Shown: positions 13,725-55,375 of the stretch, piece by piece
Position numbering within the stretch: the first letter of the stretch is position 1
How the letters are laid out: every line of letters starts with the position of its first letter
From: Polaromonas sp. JS666
GTDB lineage: Bacteria > Pseudomonadota > Gammaproteobacteria > Burkholderiales > Burkholderiaceae_C
Direction of reading: 5' to 3'
DNA length: 64,000 nt
NCBI RefSeq assembly: GCF_000013865.1
Contig: NC_007948.1
Location: 4,455,001-4,519,000, forward strand
The notes under the pieces: model-generated
Told to the model about the DNA's origin: nothing
Databases searched by the model: none
The model's input: the letters and a program-made list of their open reading frames with translations, nothing else
Made by a program: the position numbers and the translations under genes

Positions 13725-14720
13725 ATGAAAACCAGACCCTTTCAACAAGTCGATGTGTTCACCGCGGTGCCTTATTTCGGCAACCCGCTGGCCGTGGTGC
13801 TCAACGCAAGCGGCCTCGATGACGAGGCGATGCAGCGCTTTGCCCGCTGGACGAACTTGTCGGAGACCACCTTCGTGCAACCGCCAGCCAACCCGTCGGC
13901 CGACTACCGGGTGCGCATCTTCACGCCCGGCGGCGAGCTGCCCTTTGCCGGCCATCCCACGCTGGGCAGCTGCCACAGCTGGCTGCAGGCGGGCGGACAG
14001 CCGCGCAACCCGGACTTCATCGTGCAGGAATGCAAGATTGGCCTGGTGAAAATCCGGCGCGAAGGCGCGCGTCTGGCCTTCGCAGCGCCGCCCCTCAAGC
14101 GCTCCGCGCCCAGCCCGGCACTGCTGGCCCAGGTCGCAGCCGCCCTCGGCGTGAAAGCGCCGCAGATTCTTGCCGCGCAGCTGCTCGACAACGGGCCGGT
14201 CTGGCTCGGCCTGCTGCTGGACAGCCCGGAAACCGTGCTGCAGCTCACGCCCAACCATCTGGAGCTTGAAAAGCTGGACGCCAAGGTTGGCGTGGCGGCC
14301 GTCTACCAACCCGAGGAAACGCCGTCGCTGATCGCCCGTGCCAACCGCGAAGCGCAGGCTTTTGTTGCCCCCACGCTTGCCACTGCGTGTGCTGCGCTGC
14401 CCCCCGAGGGGGCTGAACTTGCTCGGGGCGGCCCTTCGCTGCGTTCGATGGCCTCCATGACGGCCAGCGCCGAGCCGGACCTGGAAGTGCGCGCCTTTGT
14501 CGCCTCCATCGGCATCAACGAAGACCCGGTGACCGGCAGCCTCAATGCCGGCCTGGCGCAGTGGCTGATCGCGGAAGGGCATGTGCCCGAGCGCTATCTG
14601 GCCGCGCAAGGGGTGTGCCTGGGCCGCGCGGGACAGGTTCATATCGAGCGCGATGCCTCAGGGCAGGTGTGGGTCGGCGGTGAATCGGTGACCTGCATCA
14701 CCGGCCAGGTCATGCTGTAG
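13725..14720 (+). CDS. PhzF-family isomerase with repeat-derived insertion
   Basis: 331-residue PhzF/DapF-fold protein. The start MKTRPFQQVDVFTAVPYFGNPLAVV, the catalytic-type Glu47 in NLSETTFV, FTPGGELPFAGHPTLG (67-81) and GINEDPVTGSLNAGLAQW (263-280) are all family landmarks. PhzF members isomerise small ring acids such as dihydro-hydroxyanthranilate; relatives act on other amino acid derivatives. The protein is about 30 residues longer than usual: residues about 215-243 are encoded by a GC-rich interspersed repeat (14367-14434) that is read through in frame just before the DLEVRAF strand. The insertion lies in what should be a loop of the second domain, so activity may survive. Starts 22 bp after the GST. 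Confidence 0.88.
   Translation: MKTRPFQQVDVFTAVPYFGNPLAVVLNASGLDDEAMQRFARWTNLSETTFVQPPANPSADYRVRIFTPGGELPFAGHPTLGSCHSWLQAGGQPRNPDFIVQECKIGLVKIRREGARLAFAAPPLKRSAPSPALLAQVAAALGVKAPQILAAQLLDNGPVWLGLLLDSPETVLQLTPNHLELEKLDAKVGVAAVYQPEETPSLIARANREAQAFVAPTLATACAALPPEGAELARGGPSLRSMASMTASAEPDLEVRAFVASIGINEDPVTGSLNAGLAQWLIAEGHVPERYLAAQGVCLGRAGQVHIERDASGQVWVGGESVTCITGQVML
14367..14434 (-). repeat. GC-rich interspersed repeat inside the phzF-like gene
   Basis: Runs from GCCCCCACGCTTGCCAC through a GCGCTGCCCCCC/GAGGGGGC core to GGGGCGGCCC. It is the reverse complement of the copy in sufS (49207-49280) at most positions. It has no stop codon in the host frame and adds roughly 23 residues. No clear target duplication is seen here. 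Confidence 0.8.
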
Positions 14721-17245: not shown

Positions 17246-18061
17246 ATGGGAACCCTTTACCTCGTGCGCCATGGCCAGGCCTCGTTTGGCGCCGATGACT
17301 ACGATGTACTCAGTGCGATGGGGCACCAGCAAAGCGTGCGCCTGGGGGAATACTTCCAGCACAGGGGCGTGACCTTCGACGCCGCACTGACCGGCACCCT
17401 GAATCGCCAGATCCGGACCCTGGCCGGCATCTGCCAGGGCATGGGCGTGGAGTTTGCAGTACCAGATGAAGCCGAACGGAATTCAGTGATCGAACGTGGG
17501 AGCTCTTCATCCCAGCAGGGGCCGCGGGACTGGCTTTGCCAGACCGCAGGCGCAGCGGCCCCCTCGGGGGGCAGCGCATTACACGCAGTGAAAAGCGTGG
17601 GGGCCCATATCCTCTGGCCCGGCCTGAACGAGTACGATAGCCATGCGGTGATTGAAACCATTCACCCGCACAAGCTCGAAAAGCCGACATCGCCCGAGAT
17701 GTACCGCAACCACTTCCGCCTGCTGCGCGACGGCCTGGCCCAGTGGATGGCCGGCGTGGTCAGCCCCCGGGGCATGCCCAGCTACACCGACTTTGTCGCT
17801 GGCGTGACCAGCGCGCTGGACCACGTCCGGAAAAATTTCGACGGCAATGTGCTGCTGATCTCCAGTGGCGGCCCGATCGCGACCGCGGTGGGCCATGTGC
17901 TGGGCACCAGCCCGGAAACGACGATAGAGCTGAACCTGCGTATCCGCAACTGCTCGGTCACCGAGTTCGCCTTCACGCCCAAGCGTCACATGCTGGTGAC
18001 CTACAACACGCTGCCACACCTGGACGGGCCCGAGTACGCGGAATGGGTCACCTACGCCTGA
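17246..18061 (+). CDS. Histidine phosphatase (phosphoglycerate mutase-like) with repeat-derived insertion
   Basis: 271-residue histidine phosphatase superfamily protein. The catalytic motif LVRHGQASFG has the phospho-acceptor His9. The usual second catalytic region reads LLISSGGPIATAVGH, with Ser where many members have His; this variant is common in one branch. Residues about 90-120 come from a GC-rich repeat (17515-17604) read in frame: GPRDWLCQTAGAAAPSGG, then VGAHI. It separates AVPDEAER from ILWPGLNEYD, which in relatives are close together. Insertion near the active-site cap could alter substrate choice. Substrate unknown; 61 bp after the dehydratase. Confidence 0.85.
   Translation: MGTLYLVRHGQASFGADDYDVLSAMGHQQSVRLGEYFQHRGVTFDAALTGTLNRQIRTLAGICQGMGVEFAVPDEAERNSVIERGSSSSQQGPRDWLCQTAGAAAPSGGSALHAVKSVGAHILWPGLNEYDSHAVIETIHPHKLEKPTSPEMYRNHFRLLRDGLAQWMAGVVSPRGMPSYTDFVAGVTSALDHVRKNFDGNVLLISSGGPIATAVGHVLGTSPETTIELNLRIRNCSVTEFAFTPKRHMLVTYNTLPHLDGPEYAEWVTYA
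17515..17604 (+). repeat. GC-rich interspersed repeat inside the histidine phosphatase gene
   Basis: Forward-orientation copy with an extended left half: GCAGGGGCCGCGGGAC, a small CTGGC-TTT-GCCAG hairpin, then the GGCCCCCTCGGGGGGCAGCGC core and AGCGTGGGGGC at the right end. No stop codons occur in the host frame. The right end matches the right end of the sufS and priA copies. Confidence 0.8.
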
Positions 18062-34134: not shown

Positions 34135-34881
34135 ATGCCCACCTTGCGCCCCCCTGTGCCGCCTTCGCTCCTGCTGTCCGGCCTGCTGGCCCTGCTGCTG
34201 GCGGGCTGCGCCTCCACCGCACCCACATCGCGCGGCGAGGCGCAATCGGCCGCCATGACCTCATCGGAACTGGCGCAATCCGACGTCAACCGCATGGCCA
34301 CGCTGGGCATGCGCGACAACCTGGACAGCCTGCTGCGCCTGGGCGACAAGCTCTACCGGCGCAACCCGGCCGAATGGCGAAAAACCGGCCTGGCCAGCCG
34401 CGAGGCGGCGCTGGCCCGGCTGCGCAGCGCCATCGAGGCGCGCAGCGCCTGGCCCGAACTGCAGGGCAAGCGCGACATCGCCGCCCTGTCGCTGGCCCTG
34501 GCGGGCGACTTCAAGGGCGACCGCGTGGCGGCTTTCATTTACGCCAGTGCCGACATGCTGGTCACCGCCCATGGCGGCAAAACCAGTTTCTACCTGACCG
34601 ATGCGCTGGACCCCCAATACATCTACAACGCGGCCCGCAACATCGAGATCGCGGTGTGGCTGCTCTCCAGCCGGCGCAACAGCGCAGGACAGCCGCTGCT
34701 GCTGGCCGACGAGATCTCCGAGCGCGAGCGCAACCTGAGTTTCGAGCGCGAGTTCGGCAAGGTGATCGGCCGGCTGGACCTGCTGGCGGCCGTGCTGACC
34801 GAGAAATACCGCCGCGCCGTGATCACCTATGTACAGAACCTGCTGGGTGGCACCTTTCTGCAGTTTTTGCCGGTTAGATAA
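34135..34881 (+). CDS. Hypothetical lipoprotein
   Basis: 248-residue predicted lipoprotein: LLLSGLLALLLAGC with lipobox LLAG-C25. The mature part is mainly helical and Leu/Arg-rich (MRDNLDSLLRLGDKLYRRNPAEWRKTGL, then ASREAALARLRSAIEAR). The segment SLALAGDFKGDRVAAFIYASADMLVTAHGGKTSFYLTDALDPQYIYNAARNIEIAVWLL looks like a conserved core seen in Burkholderiales-type envelope lipoproteins. I do not recognise a function. The stop codon lies at the edge of a 130-bp tandem duplication, whose second copy repeats the last ten bases of the gene imperfectly. Confidence 0.75.
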   Translation: MPTLRPPVPPSLLLSGLLALLLAGCASTAPTSRGEAQSAAMTSSELAQSDVNRMATLGMRDNLDSLLRLGDKLYRRNPAEWRKTGLASREAALARLRSAIEARSAWPELQGKRDIAALSLALAGDFKGDRVAAFIYASADMLVTAHGGKTSFYLTDALDPQYIYNAARNIEIAVWLLSSRRNSAGQPLLLADEISERERNLSFEREFGKVIGRLDLLAAVLTEKYRRAVITYVQNLLGGTFLQFLPVR

Positions 34882-35130
34882 GCTCACCCCCGTCTCGGCT
34901 CACTTTGTGTAGCCGGATCCCCCCTTGCAGGGGGCGACAGCTGCGGCCCGGCGGAGCCGGTTCCGCGCTGCCACTTGCTTGGGCCGGAATGCTTTGGCGC
35001 CGGTCAAATAGGTTCACCCCCTTCTCGGCTCACTTTGTGTAGCCGGATCCCCCCTTGCAGGGGGCGACTGCTGTGGCCCGGCATAGCCGGTTCCACGCCG
35101 TCACTTGGTCTGGGCGGCTGCGCTGGCGTC
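34871..35130. repeat. 130-bp tandem duplication of a GC-rich repeat
   Basis: Two copies with exact period 130 (the TCACCCCC start lies at 34884 and 35014). Each holds CTCGGCTCACTTTGTGTAG, a CCCCCCTTGCAGGGGG hairpin and GGCCCGGC..AGCCGGTTCC. The copies differ at about a dozen positions, so the duplication is not recent. A relative lies at 55277-55375. The first copy starts in the last codons of the lipoprotein gene. This covers most of the gene-free stretch 34882-35188. Confidence 0.8.
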
Positions 35131-35188: not shown

Positions 35189-36514
35189 ATGCCCGACAAC
35201 TACCTGCCGCAGGTCAGAAGCCAGTACGAAGCCCTGCCCTACCCGCCGTGCAATCCGGAGGACGACCGCCAGCGGCTGGTGCTGACCTGGCTGGAAGACC
35301 TGCCGATGATCAATCACTACTGCTTTGCCGGAAAGCAGTCGTTTCGCAACGGTTTCAGGGCCCTGGTGGCGGGTGGCGGCACCGGGGACGCCACGATCTT
35401 CCTGGCCGAGCAGCTGCGCGCCACCGACGCACAGATCGTGCACCTGGACATGAGCGAGGCCAGCATCGCGCTGGCAAAGGAAAGGGCGCGCATTCGCGGC
35501 CTGAGCAACATCACCTGGGTGCACGACTCGCTGCTCAACCTGCCCCATCTGGGCCTGGCGCCCTTCGACTACATCAACTGCAGCGGCGTGCTGCACCACC
35601 TGGCCGACCCCGACCTGGGCTTCCGGGCCCTGCGCGCGGTGCTCAAACCCGAGGGGGCCATCGGCCTGATGGTGTACGCCACGGCGGGGCGCACCGGGGT
35701 CTACCAGATGCAGGCCCTGATGCGGCTCGTCAACGGCACGCAGGCTGACGACCAGCGCAAGATTGCCAATACCCGCGACCTGCTGGCCAGCCTGCCGCCC
35801 AGCAACTGGTTCAAGCGCAGCGAAGACCTGCACCACGACCACAAGGCCGGGGACGCCGGCATCTACGACCTGCTGCTGCATTCGCAGGACCGCTCGTACT
35901 CGGTGGGCGAACTGTTTGACTGGCTGGGGCACGACGCCGCAGGCACGGGAGGGCACGGCCTGCACCTCGAATTTACCGACGTGCAGCGCGGCCGTTCGCC
36001 CTACCTGCCGCACATGGTGCTGGGCAGCCAGCCACCGGCCATGGCCGGCGAACTGCGCAAGATGCCGCGCCGACGGCAGTATGAGATGGCCGAGCTGATG
36101 ATAGGCAACCTCATCACCCATTCGCTGTACGTCACGCGCGATGCCGGCTGTACCGCGCCTTACGGCAATGCCGAATACGTGCCTTTTTTCTTCCATGAGC
36201 CGCTGACCGGCGACATCGCGGCACAGGTCTTCAGCAGCAACCGCGGCCAGCCCTTCCTGCTCCGGCACCAGCACTCCGGCGTGTCGGTGATGGTCAACCC
36301 CGGCCGATATGGGCCGCAAATCCTTCGCCTGATTGACGGCCAGAGAACATTCGGCGAGATTTTTGATCAGTTTCGCGCCGACTGGCGCGGCCAGGCGGCC
36401 GCGCCGGACAACGCGGCGCTGTTTGCCGACTTTTCCGAATCATTTGACGTGCTGAACGCGCTGGACCGCCTGCTGCTGAAGCATCCGCAAGCCGACGCGG
36501 CTAAGGCGCCTTAG
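35189..36514 (+). CDS. SAM-dependent methyltransferase with C-terminal extension
   Basis: 441-residue class I methyltransferase. The SAM-binding motif I is LVAGGGTGDATIFLAEQL (59-76), motif II HLDMSEASIALAKERA, and motif III NCSGVLHHLADPDLGFRAL. Residues about 240-441 form an extra region, ending in a short PqqD-like element (ILRLIDGQRTFGEIFDQFRADW). The N-terminus SQYEALPYPPCNPEDD is shared with tetratricopeptide-linked methyltransferases of proteobacteria. An upstream in-frame start at 35105 lies in repeat DNA, so I chose 35189. The TAG stop is overlapped by the TTA duplication and first G of a MITE-like element. Substrate unknown. Confidence 0.87.
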   Translation: MPDNYLPQVRSQYEALPYPPCNPEDDRQRLVLTWLEDLPMINHYCFAGKQSFRNGFRALVAGGGTGDATIFLAEQLRATDAQIVHLDMSEASIALAKERARIRGLSNITWVHDSLLNLPHLGLAPFDYINCSGVLHHLADPDLGFRALRAVLKPEGAIGLMVYATAGRTGVYQMQALMRLVNGTQADDQRKIANTRDLLASLPPSNWFKRSEDLHHDHKAGDAGIYDLLLHSQDRSYSVGELFDWLGHDAAGTGGHGLHLEFTDVQRGRSPYLPHMVLGSQPPAMAGELRKMPRRRQYEMAELMIGNLITHSLYVTRDAGCTAPYGNAEYVPFFFHEPLTGDIAAQVFSSNRGQPFLLRHQHSGVSVMVNPGRYGPQILRLIDGQRTFGEIFDQFRADWRGQAAAPDNAALFADFSESFDVLNALDRLLLKHPQADAAKAP

Positions 36515-36672
36515 GGCTCGTTCGGGAATAGGTTGTGCATTTGACCGTCGGATTCGGGATGCGCTGCTAGGCGCGGTGAGCGCCGTGTGGCCAGGCCACA
36601 CAAGCGAGTCGCAACAACGCAGCGCGCCTGAAGCTGGCGAGCAAAATGTGCAAGTTATTCCCGAACGAGCCC
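36514..36672. mobile_element. MITE-like element, 159 bp, inserted in the methyltransferase stop codon
   Basis: Terminal inverted repeats are perfect for 17 bp (GGGCTCGTTCGGGAATA and its complement), then imperfect for another 15 bp. TTA is duplicated on both sides (36511-36513 and 36673-36675). An internal perfect palindrome GTGTGGCC-A-GGCCACAC lies at the centre. There is no coding capacity, so a transposase elsewhere would be needed. Confidence 0.75.
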
Positions 36673-36697
36673 TTAGCCTCGCGGCTCGTCCAGCCAC

Positions 36698-41888: not shown

Positions 41889-44108
41889 ATGACTTACTGG
41901 ATCGAGGTGGTCGTGGCCACGCCGGCCCACAGTGCTGTCGCCGGACCGCTGACTTATCGAAGTGAGTTCCCACTGTTCCCGGGCGCGCTGGTGCGTGTTC
42001 CCCTGGGCAAGCGGGAAGTGCTGGGCGTGGTGTGGAACCTGCTGCCGGACAGCGGTGGCCTGCCGGAAAAGCAGATCCGTTCCATTGCCGGCGCCCTCGA
42101 TGGGCTGGCCCCCCTGGCCACGACCTGGCGAAAACTGGTCGCATTCACGGCTGGCTACTACCAGCGCTCGCTGGGCGAAGTGGCGTTGGCCGCCCTGCCG
42201 CCGCAACTGCGCGAACTCAGCGCCGTGCAGCTGGCGCGCCGGCTCAAGCGCCCCGTGCTGGACACCAGTTGCGCCCCGGGCACTGCTGATTTAATAGCAC
42301 TCACCCCACAACAGACGAAAGCACTGGCCGAATTTGATGGCGATGCTGATGCCCGGCCGGCCCTGCTGTTTGGCGCCACCGGCAGCGGCAAAACCGAAGT
42401 CTACCTGCGGGCGGCGGCCCGCGTGCTGGAGCAGGACCCGGACGCCCAGGTGCTGGTCATGGTGCCCGAAATCAACCTCACGCCGCAGTTGCAGGCCCGG
42501 TTTGAGGCGCGCTTTGCCCACCTGGGCAAGGAGCGGGTCGTGCCCATGCACAGCGGGCTCACGCCGGCCCAGCGACTCAAAGGCTGGCTGGCGGCCCACA
42601 CAGGGCAGGCCCGGCTGGTGCTGGGCACCCGCATGGCGGTGCTGGCCTCTCTGCCCAACTTGCGCCTGCTGGTCGTCGATGAAGAGCATGACCCGAGCTA
42701 CAAGCAGCAGGAAGGTGCGCGCTACTCGGCACGCGACCTGGCGGTTTACCGCGCCAAGCTCGAAACCGCCGAAGCCAGACATGCGCACGGCCCCTGCCGC
42801 GTGCTGCTGGGTTCGGCCACGCCCTCGCTGGAAAGCTGGCAGGCCACCCTGACCGGCCGCTACCAGCGCCTGACCATGACCGAACGCATTGGTGTTCCAT
42901 CATCGATAGGCATGGAAGCGCTGCAATTTTCCGACGGGCCGCCCCTAGGAAAATTAGCCCCCCCGGGGGGCAGCGAGCTACGCGCAGCGAGCGAGCGTGG
43001 GGGCCTACCGTTAGTGCGCCGGGTGGACATGAACCACCAGCCCAAACACTGCATCATTGCCCCGCCCCTGGTTGAAGCGATTGCCCAGCGGGTGGCGCGC
43101 GGCGAGCAATCGCTGATTTTCCTGAACCGGCGCGGCTATGCGCCGGTACTGGCCTGCCACGATTGCGGCTGGAAAAGCGAATGCCCGCACTGCAGTGCCT
43201 ACCGGGTGTTTCACAAGATAGACCGCACCCTGCGCTGCCACCACTGCGGTTTCACGGAGCGGGTGCCGCGAGCCTGCCCGGACTGCGGCAACATCGACAT
43301 CGCGCCCGTGGGGCGCGGCACCGAACGGCTGGAAGAGCACCTCGCCGAGCTGCTGGCCCATGTGCAGCGGCCCGATGACGGCGGAGTGCCGGGGCCGGTC
43401 AGGATTGCCCGCATCGATGCCGACAGCACGCGGCTCAAGGGCGCCCTCGAATCGCAACTGGCCAGCGTCCATGCCCGCGAGGTCGATGTCCTGGTCGGCA
43501 CGCAAATGATTGCCAAGGGCCATGACTTCCGGCACATCACGCTGGTGGCGGCCATCAACCCCGACGGCGCGCTGTTCTCCAGCGACTTCCGTGCGCCCGA
43601 ACGCCTGTTCAGCCTGTTGATGCAGGCCGGCGGCCGGGCCGGCCGCGATGCCCGGCACAGCGAGGCCAGCGAGATGTGGGTGCAGACTTTCCACCCGGAC
43701 CATCCGCTGTTCGAAGCGCTGAAAAAGCACGACTACCCGGCCTTTGCCGCCCGGCAGCTGGCCGAGCGGGAAGCCGCCGGCATGGCGCCCTTCGGCTTTT
43801 CAGCGCTGGTGCGCGCCGAGGCCCGCGCGCAGGAGGTGGCGCAGGGCTTCCTCAACGCCGCCGCCGCATCGGCAAAAGCGCAGCAGGTCACCGGCCACGA
43901 CCAGGTGGCGGCCTACCCGGCCGTACCGATGACGATCCAGCGCGTGGCCAACATCGAGCGCGCACAAATGCTGGTGGAAAGCCCGTCACGCGCAGCCCTG
44001 CAGCGCTTCCTGGCCGCGTGGCAGCCGGTGCTGTTTGAAACCCGCCAGCACAGCGATTTCAAAAGCCTGATCCGCTGGGCGGTGGATGTGGACCCGATTG
44101 CGATTTAA
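41889..44108 (+). CDS. priA: Primosomal protein N' (PriA helicase) with repeat-derived insertion
   Basis: 739-residue replication restart helicase. N-terminal 3'-DNA-binding domain (YWIEVVVATPAH, then GALVRVPLGKREVLGVVWN); Walker A GATGSGKT (162-169); Walker B with DEEH (264-267); a Zn-binding module with eight Cys (CHDCGWKSECPHC, then CHHCGFTERVPRACPDCG); helicase motif VLVGTQMIAKGHDFRHITLV. It reloads the replisome at stalled forks. Residues about 350-373 are encoded by a 69-bp GC-rich repeat read in frame, between the RIGVPSSIGMEAL and RRVDMNHQPK segments. A TTG nine bases upstream is possible but ATG 41889 gives the family start. A GGCCGGT-T-ACCGGCC hairpin follows the stop (44110-44124). 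Confidence 0.95.
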   Translation: MTYWIEVVVATPAHSAVAGPLTYRSEFPLFPGALVRVPLGKREVLGVVWNLLPDSGGLPEKQIRSIAGALDGLAPLATTWRKLVAFTAGYYQRSLGEVALAALPPQLRELSAVQLARRLKRPVLDTSCAPGTADLIALTPQQTKALAEFDGDADARPALLFGATGSGKTEVYLRAAARVLEQDPDAQVLVMVPEINLTPQLQARFEARFAHLGKERVVPMHSGLTPAQRLKGWLAAHTGQARLVLGTRMAVLASLPNLRLLVVDEEHDPSYKQQEGARYSARDLAVYRAKLETAEARHAHGPCRVLLGSATPSLESWQATLTGRYQRLTMTERIGVPSSIGMEALQFSDGPPLGKLAPPGGSELRAASERGGLPLVRRVDMNHQPKHCIIAPPLVEAIAQRVARGEQSLIFLNRRGYAPVLACHDCGWKSECPHCSAYRVFHKIDRTLRCHHCGFTERVPRACPDCGNIDIAPVGRGTERLEEHLAELLAHVQRPDDGGVPGPVRIARIDADSTRLKGALESQLASVHAREVDVLVGTQMIAKGHDFRHITLVAAINPDGALFSSDFRAPERLFSLLMQAGGRAGRDARHSEASEMWVQTFHPDHPLFEALKKHDYPAFAARQLAEREAAGMAPFGFSALVRAEARAQEVAQGFLNAAAASAKAQQVTGHDQVAAYPAVPMTIQRVANIERAQMLVESPSRAALQRFLAAWQPVLFETRQHSDFKSLIRWAVDVDPIAI
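42936..43004 (+). repeat. GC-rich interspersed repeat inside priA
   Basis: GGGCCGCCCCTAGG at the left, the CCCCCCCGGGGGGCAGCG core, CTACGCGCAGCGAG, and AGCGTGGGGGC at the right: 69 bp, exactly 23 codons with no stop. Orientation is the same as in sufS. No target duplication is evident. Confidence 0.8.
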
Positions 44109-47857: not shown

Positions 47858-47861
<4 letters not shown>

Positions 47862-49201
47862 ACGTCACCGCCACCGATTTCTACCGCGACGAATTTGCCC
47901 GCCTCAAGGCGTCACTGCCCGGCGGGCACCTGCCGTGGCTGCGCCGCGCGCGCGAAGCAGGGCTGGCGTCTTTCGCCGACACTGGCTTGCCGACGCTGCG
48001 GCAGGAGGACTGGAAGTACACCAGCGTCGCCGCCATCGAGAAAGGCCGTTTTGTGCTGGCCACGCTGACGCCGCCGACGCCGAACGGTGTCACGGCGCAG
48101 CAGATCGAAGACTGGAGCCTGCCCGACACGCAGCGCCTGGTGTTTGTGAACGGCCACTATCAGCCACGCTGGTCGCGCATAGCGCCGCTGCCCGCAGGCG
48201 TCACGCTGGCCAGCCTCGCCGAGCTGCTGGAACGCGACCCCGAGTGCCTGGAAAGCCTGCTGGGGCCGACGCCGCACGCCTACCCGTCCGGCTGCTACCC
48301 GTCTGCCTTTGCGGCGCTGAACGCGGCCTTCATGAGTGACGGCGCCTATGTCCATCTGGCCGCTGGCGTGGCGCTCGACACACCGATCCACCTGCTGTTT
48401 GTCACCACCGAAGCGGGCCTGGCGGTGCAGACGCGCAACCTCGTGGTGGCCGACGCCGGCAGCCGGGCCAGCCTGATCGAGCACCATGTGGCCGTCGGCG
48501 AAGGCGCCTACTTCACCAACGTGATCACCGACCTCGTGGCCGGGCGCGACGCCGAAATCGAGCACCACAAGCTGCAGCAGGAGAGCCTCAAGGCCTTCCA
48601 CGTCGCCGCGGTGAATGCGGACCAGCAGCATGGCAGCCGCTTCACCTCGCGCTCGTTCGCACTGGGCGCGGTCCTGGCGCGGATCGATATCGGCGTCGGG
48701 CTCAATGCCGAGCACACCACGTGCGCGCTCGACGGGCTGTACATGACCGACGGCCGCCAGCATATCGACCACCACACCCGCATCGACCATGCCCGGCCGC
48801 ACGGCACCAGCCGCGAGTTCTACAAGGGCGTGCTGGCCGGCGCATCCCGCGCGGTGTTCAACGGCAAGGTGATCGTGCATGCCGATGCGCAGCACAGCGA
48901 TGCCGATCAGACCAACCGCAACCTGCTGCTGTCGGACAACGCCGAAGTCGATACCAAACCGCAACTGGAGATCTACGCCGACGACGTGAAATGCAGCCAC
49001 GGCGCCACCGTCGGCCAGCTCGACCCCGAGCAGATCTTCTACCTGCGCTCGCGCGGCGTGGACGATGCGTCCGCGCGCGCGCTGCTCACCTTTGCCTTCG
49101 CCGAGGAAGTGGTTGACCGGGTGGGCATTGCGCCGCTGCGGGCGCGGCTGGAGAAGCTGCTGCTGGGGCGCCTGCCCGAGCGGGTGAAGGAGTTGTTATG
49201 A
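47858..49201 (+). CDS. sufD: Fe-S cluster assembly protein SufD
   Basis: 447-residue beta-helix partner of SufB. The N-terminal helical part contains LPTLRQEDWKYTSVAAIEKGRF, typical of SufD; the core ends with VKCSHGATVGQLDPEQIFYLRSRGVDDASARALLTFAFAEEVVDRV, which holds the conserved SHGAT(V/I)G motif. It supports iron entry and stability of the complex. The stop is overlapped by the sufS ATG (ATGA at 49198-49201). Confidence 0.96.
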
Positions 49202-49290
49202 ACGCCGCCGGGCCGTCCCAAGGCGCGAAGGCCCCCTTGGGGGGCAGCGCAGCACACGAAGTGGCAAGCGTGGGGGCACGTATGAACGCC
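49197..49290 (+). repeat. GC-rich repeat flanked by a 10-bp duplication at the sufD/sufS junction
   Basis: TATGAACGCC occurs at 49197-49206 and at 49281-49290. The 74 bp between (GCCGGGCCGTCCCAAGGCG, then GGCCCCCTTGGGGGGCAGCGC, ending AGCGTGGGGGCACG) match the repeats in phzF, the histidine phosphatase and priA. The repeated unit is 84 bp, 28 codons, so the sufS frame is kept. Confidence 0.85.
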
Positions 49291-50553
49291 CCAGTGAATG
49301 CGAAAGAACTGACTGCACGCGCCAGCGCGCCCGAGACAGTCCTGGCAGTGGCGCGGCTGCGGCAGGATTTCCCCATCCTGCACCGGACCGTGCACGGCAA
49401 GCCCCTGGTCTACCTGGACAACGCGGCCACCAGCCAGAAGCCGCAGTACGTGATCGACTGCGAGGCGCGCTACTACGCCGAGCTGAACGCCAACATCCAC
49501 CGCGGCGTGCACAGCCTGAGCCAGCAGGCGACCGAGGCCTATGAGGCGGCACGCGACACGGTGCAGCGCTTCATCCATGCAGCCCGCCGCGAGGAAATCG
49601 TGTTCGTGCGCGGCACCACCGAGGCGATCAACCTGGTGGCGGCGAGCTACGGCCAGCGCCTGCGGCCCGGCGACGAAATCCTGATCACCGAGATGGAGCA
49701 CCACTCCAACATCGTGCCATGGCAGCTGCTGTGCGAGCGCACGGGCGCGGTGCTGCGCGTCGCGCCCATCGACGACGCCGGCGAGTTGCGCCTCGATGAG
49801 TTCGAGCGCCTGCTGGGCCCGGCGACACGCATCGTCGCGCTCACGCAGCTGTCGAACGCGCTCGGCAGCATCAACCCGGTGCAGCGCCTCGTCGCGCTTG
49901 CCCATGCGGTGGGGGCGGTGGTGCTGGTCGATGGCGCCCAGGCGGTGGCCCACCTGCCGGTTGACGTCCAGGCGCTCGACTGCGATTTCTACGCCTTCTC
50001 CGGCCACAAGCTCTACGGCCCGACCGGCATCGGCGTGCTCTACGGCAAGGCGGCGCTGCTGGACGCCATGCCGCCCTGGCAGGGCGGCGGCGACATGATC
50101 CGCGAGGTCACCTTCGCCCGGACGACATACAACGACCTGCCGTACAAGTTCGAGGCCGGCACCCCGCATATCGCGGGCGGCATCGCCCTGGGGGCGGCGA
50201 TCGACTATGTGGGCATGGTGGGTTTGCCCGCCATCGCCGCCCACGAACACGCGCTGCTGGCCTACGCCACCGAACAGGCGGCCGGAATGGCCGGCCTGCG
50301 CCTCATCGGCACCGCCCGGGACAAGGCGAGCATCCTGTCGTTCACCGTGGAGGGCGTGCACCCGCACGATGTCGGCACCATCCTCGACGACGAGGGGGTG
50401 GCGGTGCGCGCCGGCCACCATTGCGCCATGCCGGTGATGGCGCATTTCGGCGTGCCCGCCACGGTGCGCGCCTCGTTCGCCCTCTACAACACAGTGGAAG
50501 AAGTGGATGTGCTGCTGCGCGCGATCCGCAGGGCGCAGGAGGTATTTGGCTGA
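49198..50553 (+). CDS. sufS: Cysteine desulfurase SufS
   Basis: 451-residue class II cysteine desulfurase (fold-type I, PLP). PLP lysine K271 in FSGHKLYGPTGIG; cofactor segment TEMEHHSNIVPW; active-site Cys in RAGHHCAMPVM; NAATSQKPQ and IHRGVHSLSQQATEAYE near the N-terminus. It releases sulfur from cysteine for cluster assembly. The ATG at 49198 has a strong AAGGAG site and couples to sufD, but residues 2-28 come from a repeat; a second start at 49282 (MNAPVNAKELTAR) gives the normal length of about 423 and also has GGGGG eight bases ahead. Both products may exist. Confidence 0.96.
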   Translation: MNAAGPSQGAKAPLGGSAAHEVASVGARMNAPVNAKELTARASAPETVLAVARLRQDFPILHRTVHGKPLVYLDNAATSQKPQYVIDCEARYYAELNANIHRGVHSLSQQATEAYEAARDTVQRFIHAARREEIVFVRGTTEAINLVAASYGQRLRPGDEILITEMEHHSNIVPWQLLCERTGAVLRVAPIDDAGELRLDEFERLLGPATRIVALTQLSNALGSINPVQRLVALAHAVGAVVLVDGAQAVAHLPVDVQALDCDFYAFSGHKLYGPTGIGVLYGKAALLDAMPPWQGGGDMIREVTFARTTYNDLPYKFEAGTPHIAGGIALGAAIDYVGMVGLPAIAAHEHALLAYATEQAAGMAGLRLIGTARDKASILSFTVEGVHPHDVGTILDDEGVAVRAGHHCAMPVMAHFGVPATVRASFALYNTVEEVDVLLRAIRRAQEVFG

Positions 50554-55276: not shown

Positions 55277-55375
55277 ACCCACCCCCGTTGCTGGCTCACT
55301 GCGTGTAGCCGCCTCCCCCTTCGAGGGGGCAACACCAGCGGCCCGGCAGAGCCGGTTCCGCGGTGTTCCCCGCAC
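55277..55375. repeat. GC-rich interspersed repeat between pcm and the membrane synthase gene
   Basis: CACCCCCGTTGCTGGCTCACTG, a CCCCCTTCGAGGGGG hairpin, and GCGGCCCGGCAGAGCCGGTTCC. Close relative of the 130-bp tandem units at 34871-35130. Confidence 0.75.

Follow-up and report, generated by a model that had tools for sequence, protein, structure and literature searches.

Probable insertion of a dispersed GC-rich repeat, with duplication of a 10-bp target, at the overlap of sufD and sufS in Polaromonas

The closest described counterpart of the repeat considered here is the BRE of betaproteobacteria, a GC-rich unit of 75-91 bp that occurs both dispersed and in tandem (Hot et al. 2011, PMC3110155). 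According to the main text of that paper, BRE copies are mostly intergenic with some lying wholly inside coding sequences, are most numerous (29) in Polaromonas sp. JS666 and were chromosomal only in the 2011 set; hairpin covariation, target duplication and a gene-by-gene list of in-frame cases do not form part of the description given there. Rickettsia palindromic elements (RPE) are described as 105-146 bp long with terminal inverted repeats and belong to Rickettsia (PMC2229807, PMC10969869), and the YPAL / RU-2 elements of Yersinia as 168 bp long with target duplications of 3-26 bp (PMC2229807). Among the literature matches listed we found nothing closer than BRE for Comamonadaceae, Acidovorax/Polaromonas or in-frame Polaromonas repeats, and those to the literal repeat sequence were all unrelated by title; on BRE itself the 2011 paper alone was found. 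A further point of comparison is REP / BIME with its RAYT transposase, which like the repeat at sufS shows high copy number, hairpins and mosaic tandem arrays.

The sufS-type repeat resembles BRE in unit size, in GC content (G or C at 56 of the 74 positions of the copy at sufS) and in having tandem units a few bases apart. It is also mostly intergenic with some copies inside coding sequences: 75 of 103 copies are intergenic, 28 touch open reading frames (ORFs) predicted with a crude gene finder, and there are in-frame cases. It is not confined to chromosomes, as four plasmid records match it at E ≤ 1e-4; such confinement was a finding from a small set and not a definition. The string GGGGGC is absent from the main text of PMC3110155. 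Judged by its described features, the sufS-type repeat is probably a BRE. Like RPE, it is a small structured repeat found in frame within many conserved protein genes; unlike RPE, it has a terminal inversion of 3 bp, often sits behind stop codons and has a free-living host, Polaromonas. It has in common with YPAL / RU-2 internal inverted repeats, a composition that is not A+T-rich, variable target duplications and the existence of filled and empty sites, but it has a different host, is shorter than 168 bp and mostly lacks visible duplications. Compared to REP / BIME it is longer, has more hairpins and enters genes; the genome has one Y1_Tnp gene (C1:813752-814072, in a 240-aa open frame), a possible RAYT.

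Four genes of the window (the whole 64-kb stretch of DNA that was analysed) match the SufB, SufC, SufD and SufS NCBIfam models, and at the junction of the last two there are 84 additional bp. It is very probable that these represent a secondary insertion of one dispersed repeat copy at the ATGA by which sufD and sufS overlap, with duplication of 10 bp of target sequence. sufD (47858..49201, plus strand as are all features of this junction; TIGR01981) ends in a TGA at 49199-49201 that overlaps the first sufS ATG at 49198, and the end of sufD reads into sufS as AAGGAG-TTGTT-ATGA, where AAGGAG (49187..49192) is the likely ribosome-binding site of that ATG, with a spacing of 5. The overlap lies in the left copy of a 10-bp direct repeat, TATGAACGCC (49197..49206); the right copy (49281..49290) contains a second in-frame ATG at 49282. 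Between the two are the 74 bp of the repeat (49207-49280). Its common part, as defined for subclass A below, directly abuts the left TATGAACGCC and extends over 49207..49277, comprising the loop GCCGGGCCGTCCCAA, the inner arm GGCGCGAA, the hairpin GCCCCC-TTG-GGGGGC, and the 3' hairpin with its tail (GTGGGGGC). In nearly all other copies the shared part stops at GGGGGC (49277), so that the ACG at 49278..49280, which separates the common part from the right TATGAACGCC, is outside the common sequence. A repeat-derived GGGGG (49272-49276) lies 5 nt upstream of the second ATG.

An earlier note on this DNA had described TATGAACGCC on both sides of a 74-bp repeat, an in-frame extension of SufS by 28 codons and retention of the ATGA overlap and the AAGGAG site; all of this was confirmed in the sequence. 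The sufS frame is uninterrupted from 49198 to 50553 (451 aa), codons 1-28 being insertion plus duplication. Since the added length of 84 bp is divisible by three and no stop interrupts the repeat in this frame, SufS read from the first ATG gains 28 residues (MNAAGPSQGAKAPLGGSAAHEVASVGAR). Read from the second ATG it has 423 aa, and it is this form that NCBIfam TIGR01979 matches. We infer that the coupled first ATG is the main SufS start and, judging from the two frames staying open, that SufS tolerates the extension. As a separate observation, a cargo model for family 2A encapsulins (cut-off 800) gave the desulfurase (49282-50550) a score of 688 bits, the alignment covering profile positions 216-622 of 623 only.

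Repeat-free versions of the junction were found in relatives. At the DNA level, the closest relative that we found is the suf operon of a Cupriavidus oxalaticus megaplasmid (83.9% identical across 86% of a 1001-bp query). It reads GAAGGAGTTGCCATGAACACG at the overlap, with one ATGA and without the insertion, and the 38-base repeat pattern used below had zero matches on this replicon. On three Polaromonas plasmids the same overlap is ATGAACGCG (two plasmids) or ATGAACACC (one), again with a single ATGA and without the repeat. A broader survey covered 104 sufS loci including that of the window, many of them phylogenetically distant, and 88 were readable; the repeat was absent from all 87 other readable upstream regions (103 requested, many from distant phyla). 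The earlier note had expected relatives to lack the 84 bp while keeping one TATGAACGCC. The first part held. The second did not, in that exact TATGAACGCC at the sufS start was found in the window only, among the 88 readable loci; ATGAACGC is nevertheless present near the sufS start in 8 of the 87 others, which indicates that the duplicated piece is gene sequence. We did not find a near-identical strain with an empty site, SufD matching at E ≤ 1e-100 in 3 of 399 family genomes including this one. The suggestion that the ATG at 49282 is the old sufS start was supported by the distance to the FPIL motif: starting at the first ATG puts 57 residues ahead of it and starting at the second 29, compared to 28 in Cupriavidus and 22-24 in the Polaromonas plasmids.

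The repeat is abundant in this genome. BLAST with the region found at least 44 places (40 of 160 candidates having been scored), and a 38-base pattern of the 3' part gave 124 genome matches at up to 3 mismatches, where the reversed pattern gave 0. From the sequence around 99 of the 100 matches listed out of the 124 (the place left out being C1:4759256), we obtained 103 distinct copies, allowing up to 4 substitutions. A first split divided these into subclass A (50 copies, including that at sufS) and subclass B (48), which have a common 3' part; 5 were set aside, 3 of them resembling A. The unit consists of an arm of 8-9 nt, 71 bp and about 3 nt, and tandem arrays occur in which units are a few nt apart. 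Three further copies lie in the window: one at 14366..14413 (minus strand; BLAST covers its 3' 48 bp), in frame within a gene of the PhzF family; one of subclass B at 17548..17604 (plus strand), in frame inside an ORF without an NCBIfam match at 1e-10; and a more diverged one at 42957..43004 (plus strand). Outside this genome, the pattern (up to 2 mismatches) was present in 156 of 399 sampled family genomes, which belong to 76 of 141 genera; the control gave no match in the table. Rfam gave no match within 501 bp. Two GC-rich repeats of the window, D1 (34869-35117) and D3 (55315-55365), look by eye, in reverse complement, like subclass B in its 5' part.

The evidence for structure in the repeat is comparative. 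At the three variable pairs of the 3' hairpin, standard pairing is seen in 95.8% of cells across the 103 copies, versus a mean of 66.4% and a maximum of 71.5% over 1000 shuffles of one side, a figure that is no probability, since related copies do not count as independent. By minimum-energy folding, the insert is no more stable than expected (z 0.45 for RNA of the plus strand, -0.10 for DNA of the minus strand), so the case for structure rests on covariation. In subclass A, the 8-10 nt to the left of the common part pair with the inner arm, either through 7-8 contiguous pairs (23 of 50 copies) or through 4+2 pairs with an internal loop (26 of 50), and the sufS copy is the sole misfit for both types. 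This two-type rule was written after the arms had been seen and is descriptive, and the three A-like copies set aside were excluded from it; an earlier count in a single register gave on average 5.24 pairs out of 8, against 3.82 when the arms were swapped. At sufS, the inner arm predicts a left arm of TTCGCGCC while the actual sequence is TGAACGCC, with CGCC/GGCG plus one outer pair matching (5 of 8). The simplest reading is that in this copy target sequence forms the outer arm, the original one having been lost at the CGCC junction. The covarying hairpin arms provide a testable handle on how the repeat moves.

We consider insertion with a 10-bp duplication at sufS well supported, and a plausible course for it can be outlined. 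The pre-insertion junction would have been TTATGAACGCCCCAGTG, uninterrupted, into which the repeat would have been copied by means of a staggered break or a template switch. It probably entered without most of its 5' hairpin arm, joining at CGCC, the tetramer common to arm and target. The left TATGAACGCC would then have retained the sufD stop, the ribosome-binding site and a start codon, and the right one the old sufS start. The sufS case is a later insertion with target duplication, of a known kind and unusually clean. Filled and repeat-free sites together with a duplicated target would give a described, unexplained betaproteobacterial repeat an identifiable insertion, going beyond 'features of mobile elements'.

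The duplication does not generalize to the family. Within the 64-kb window TATGAACGCC occurs at just two places, both at sufS, and it was found near 1 of the 103 copies, that at sufS, in agreement with the claim that it is not part of the repeat elsewhere. We compared 22-nt flanks of 43 non-tandem copies, defined as having no further unit within 60 nt downstream (41 of the 50 subclass-A copies plus L193 and L201). Direct repeats of at least 7 bp across the insertion were present in 4 of 43, versus 0.47 expected from swapped flanks, and no swapped pair reached 10 bp; the lengths were 10 (sufS), 8 (L201), 7 (L007) and 7 (L193). In subclass B, 2 of 38 copies had at least 7 bp versus about 1.5 expected, both matching apparent remains of neighbouring repeats. 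Most copies therefore lack a visible target duplication, and the proposal that it is a hallmark of these repeats was not borne out. We rejected the 7-bp repeat of L007, in murG, as a target duplication, the interval of 80 bp not being a multiple of three; one of the four thus fails the frame test, which also counts against insertion with duplication as a family rule. At gcvP the junction is of another kind. Loci without the repeat typically read GGCGTGGGNGCCATC, and L237 is GCGTGGGGGCCA-repeat-GCGTGGGGGCCA, where the directly repeated 12 bp are identical to the 3' end of the repeat itself. With at least two kinds of junction, the evidence leans towards homology-aided copying and away from a single precise transposase, without settling the mechanism.

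The presence of the family in frame within conserved genes is more interesting than the sufS insertion itself, and sufS is one of several such cases. NCBIfam models assigned all ten repeat-carrying ORFs submitted to them, namely trpE, gcvP, recJ, murG, ksgA, folC (which carries two tandem copies), icmF, rlmI, glnE and amgK, several scoring below the curated cut-off of the best model. For four of these, repeat-free orthologues were found within the genus: the repeat was present at (i) 4 of 29 readable trpE loci; (ii) 11 of 29 readable gcvP loci; (iii) 3 of 11 readable recJ loci and (iv) 3 of 30 murG loci in full, plus two apparent shortened remnants (L279 and L285). As the loci were the best 30 per search, filled sites are over-represented and these fractions are not frequencies. 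This pattern of presence and absence supports past mobility of the repeats, as had been claimed. At trpE the junction could not be reconstructed, because the site is a variable-length loop and several repeat-free loci have a different short stretch there. The murG starts of L279 and L285 have short stretches like the repeat's 3' end (SVGA and neighbours), suggesting in-frame decay after insertion. Insertion, decay and tolerance could be traced by species in these in-frame cases and, with recJ, trpE, gcvP, folC and murG, the genus may be a free-living counterpart of the Rickettsia in-frame repeats.

Other ATGA overlaps that carry a copy are those of ftsW/murG and of an ABC-transporter junction (L193). 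At L193:946-1038, the direct repeat puts a stop in its left copy and a start in its right one, and a 30-codon frame crosses the repeat, its first ATG overlapping the upstream stop and its own stop overlapping the downstream start; on this layout, translational coupling could pass via a repeat-encoded mini-ORF. We dropped the idea that the repeat prefers ATGA overlaps, since ATGA was found at 7 of 39 repeat-adjoining stops versus 22 of 115 background stops, and in view of this the mini-ORF chains joining two genes across a repeat (19 matches) may be due to chance.

With regard to how the insertion came about, one tentative possibility, which we would put somewhat short of even, is microhomology-guided template switching or recombination without a dedicated enzyme, the 10-bp duplication being a by-product of switching back and the family spreading through copying beside homologous ends. 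Consistent with this, direct repeats vary or are absent across copies, tandem arrays exist, the sufS junction falls at the common CGCC, and the gcvP site resembles the repeat's own 3' end (GTGGGGGCC), with the 12-bp repeat of L237. On the other hand, a copy number above 100 in this genome and presence in 76 of 141 genera suggest an efficient mechanism, and no such homology was seen by eye at the murG and recJ sites. Rather doubtful is a transposase acting in trans on a MITE-like repeat with staggered cuts of about 10 bp, other copies having lost their duplications with age. The clean 10 bp at sufS, the excess of 7-10 bp repeats (4 versus 0.47) and the cases of L201, upstream of a gene resembling dnaG by eye, and of L193 at the ABC-transporter junction would fit this scenario. 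A MITE, however, has terminal inverted repeats and target duplications of fixed length, whereas the common part of the sufS copy has a terminal inverted repeat of 3 exact bases and the four direct repeats range over 7-10 bp at differing distances from the common part. The gcvP junction also differs, and no transposase was tied to the family in a search that covered the Y1 class and found one gene. An unlikely elaboration is that of a structured mobile repeat whose inner arm serves as a guide, the outer arm being target picked by pairing; each repeat lineage would target its own short word and be frame-compatible enough for repeated entry into conserved genes, including stop/start overlaps, in free-living bacteria. 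If this were true, the copy at sufS would capture one such event, in which contiguous pairing is limited to four bases (CGCC/GGCG) and the target has been duplicated.

Two further readings bear on the 84 bp at sufS as a whole. That the extension was selected, as a useful N-terminal tail or as a second start (GGGGG before the ATG at 49282) tuning the SufS level, is very unlikely: frame and coupling are preserved and the G-rich stretch is 5 nt ahead of the second ATG, but near-identical peptides occur in unrelated proteins and are missing from many orthologues, and survival of the frame is expected from purifying selection on sufS alone. Still less probable is that the right TATGAACGCC derives not from duplicated target but from a second tandem unit, since lost, whose 5' arm it would be. 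GAACGC is found near 14 of 103 copies (the sufS copy included), other copies have arms of the GAACGC type at the same spacing, and a few nt separate tandem units. Against this, ATGAACGCC occurs in the sufS copy alone, repeat-free sufS genes also begin ATGAACGC, and the right TATGAACGCC continues straight into the sufS frame.

The genomic position of the copies also follows a pattern. For 49 of 103, an opposite-strand frame of at least 60 codons ends 0-12 nt from the repeat's 3' end, compared to 1-12 copies in 17 shifted controls, and the count falls to 39 with a coding-score filter. Read on that strand, the repeat comes directly after a stop codon, within the 3' untranslated region; that nearly half of the copies are placed in this way suggests that they have a role, or are tolerated, as 3' untranslated elements. 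Two reverse frames are open in every one of the 50 subclass-A cores, and frame +1 in 48 of them. Base composition explains most of this tolerance, as the mean number of open frames per core is 4.78 of 6 versus 4.34 with shuffled letters. Elsewhere in the window, 36510-36676 contains an inverted repeat with 33-nt arms, 85% complementary and 101 nt apart, which may be a separate, 167-bp MITE-like element.
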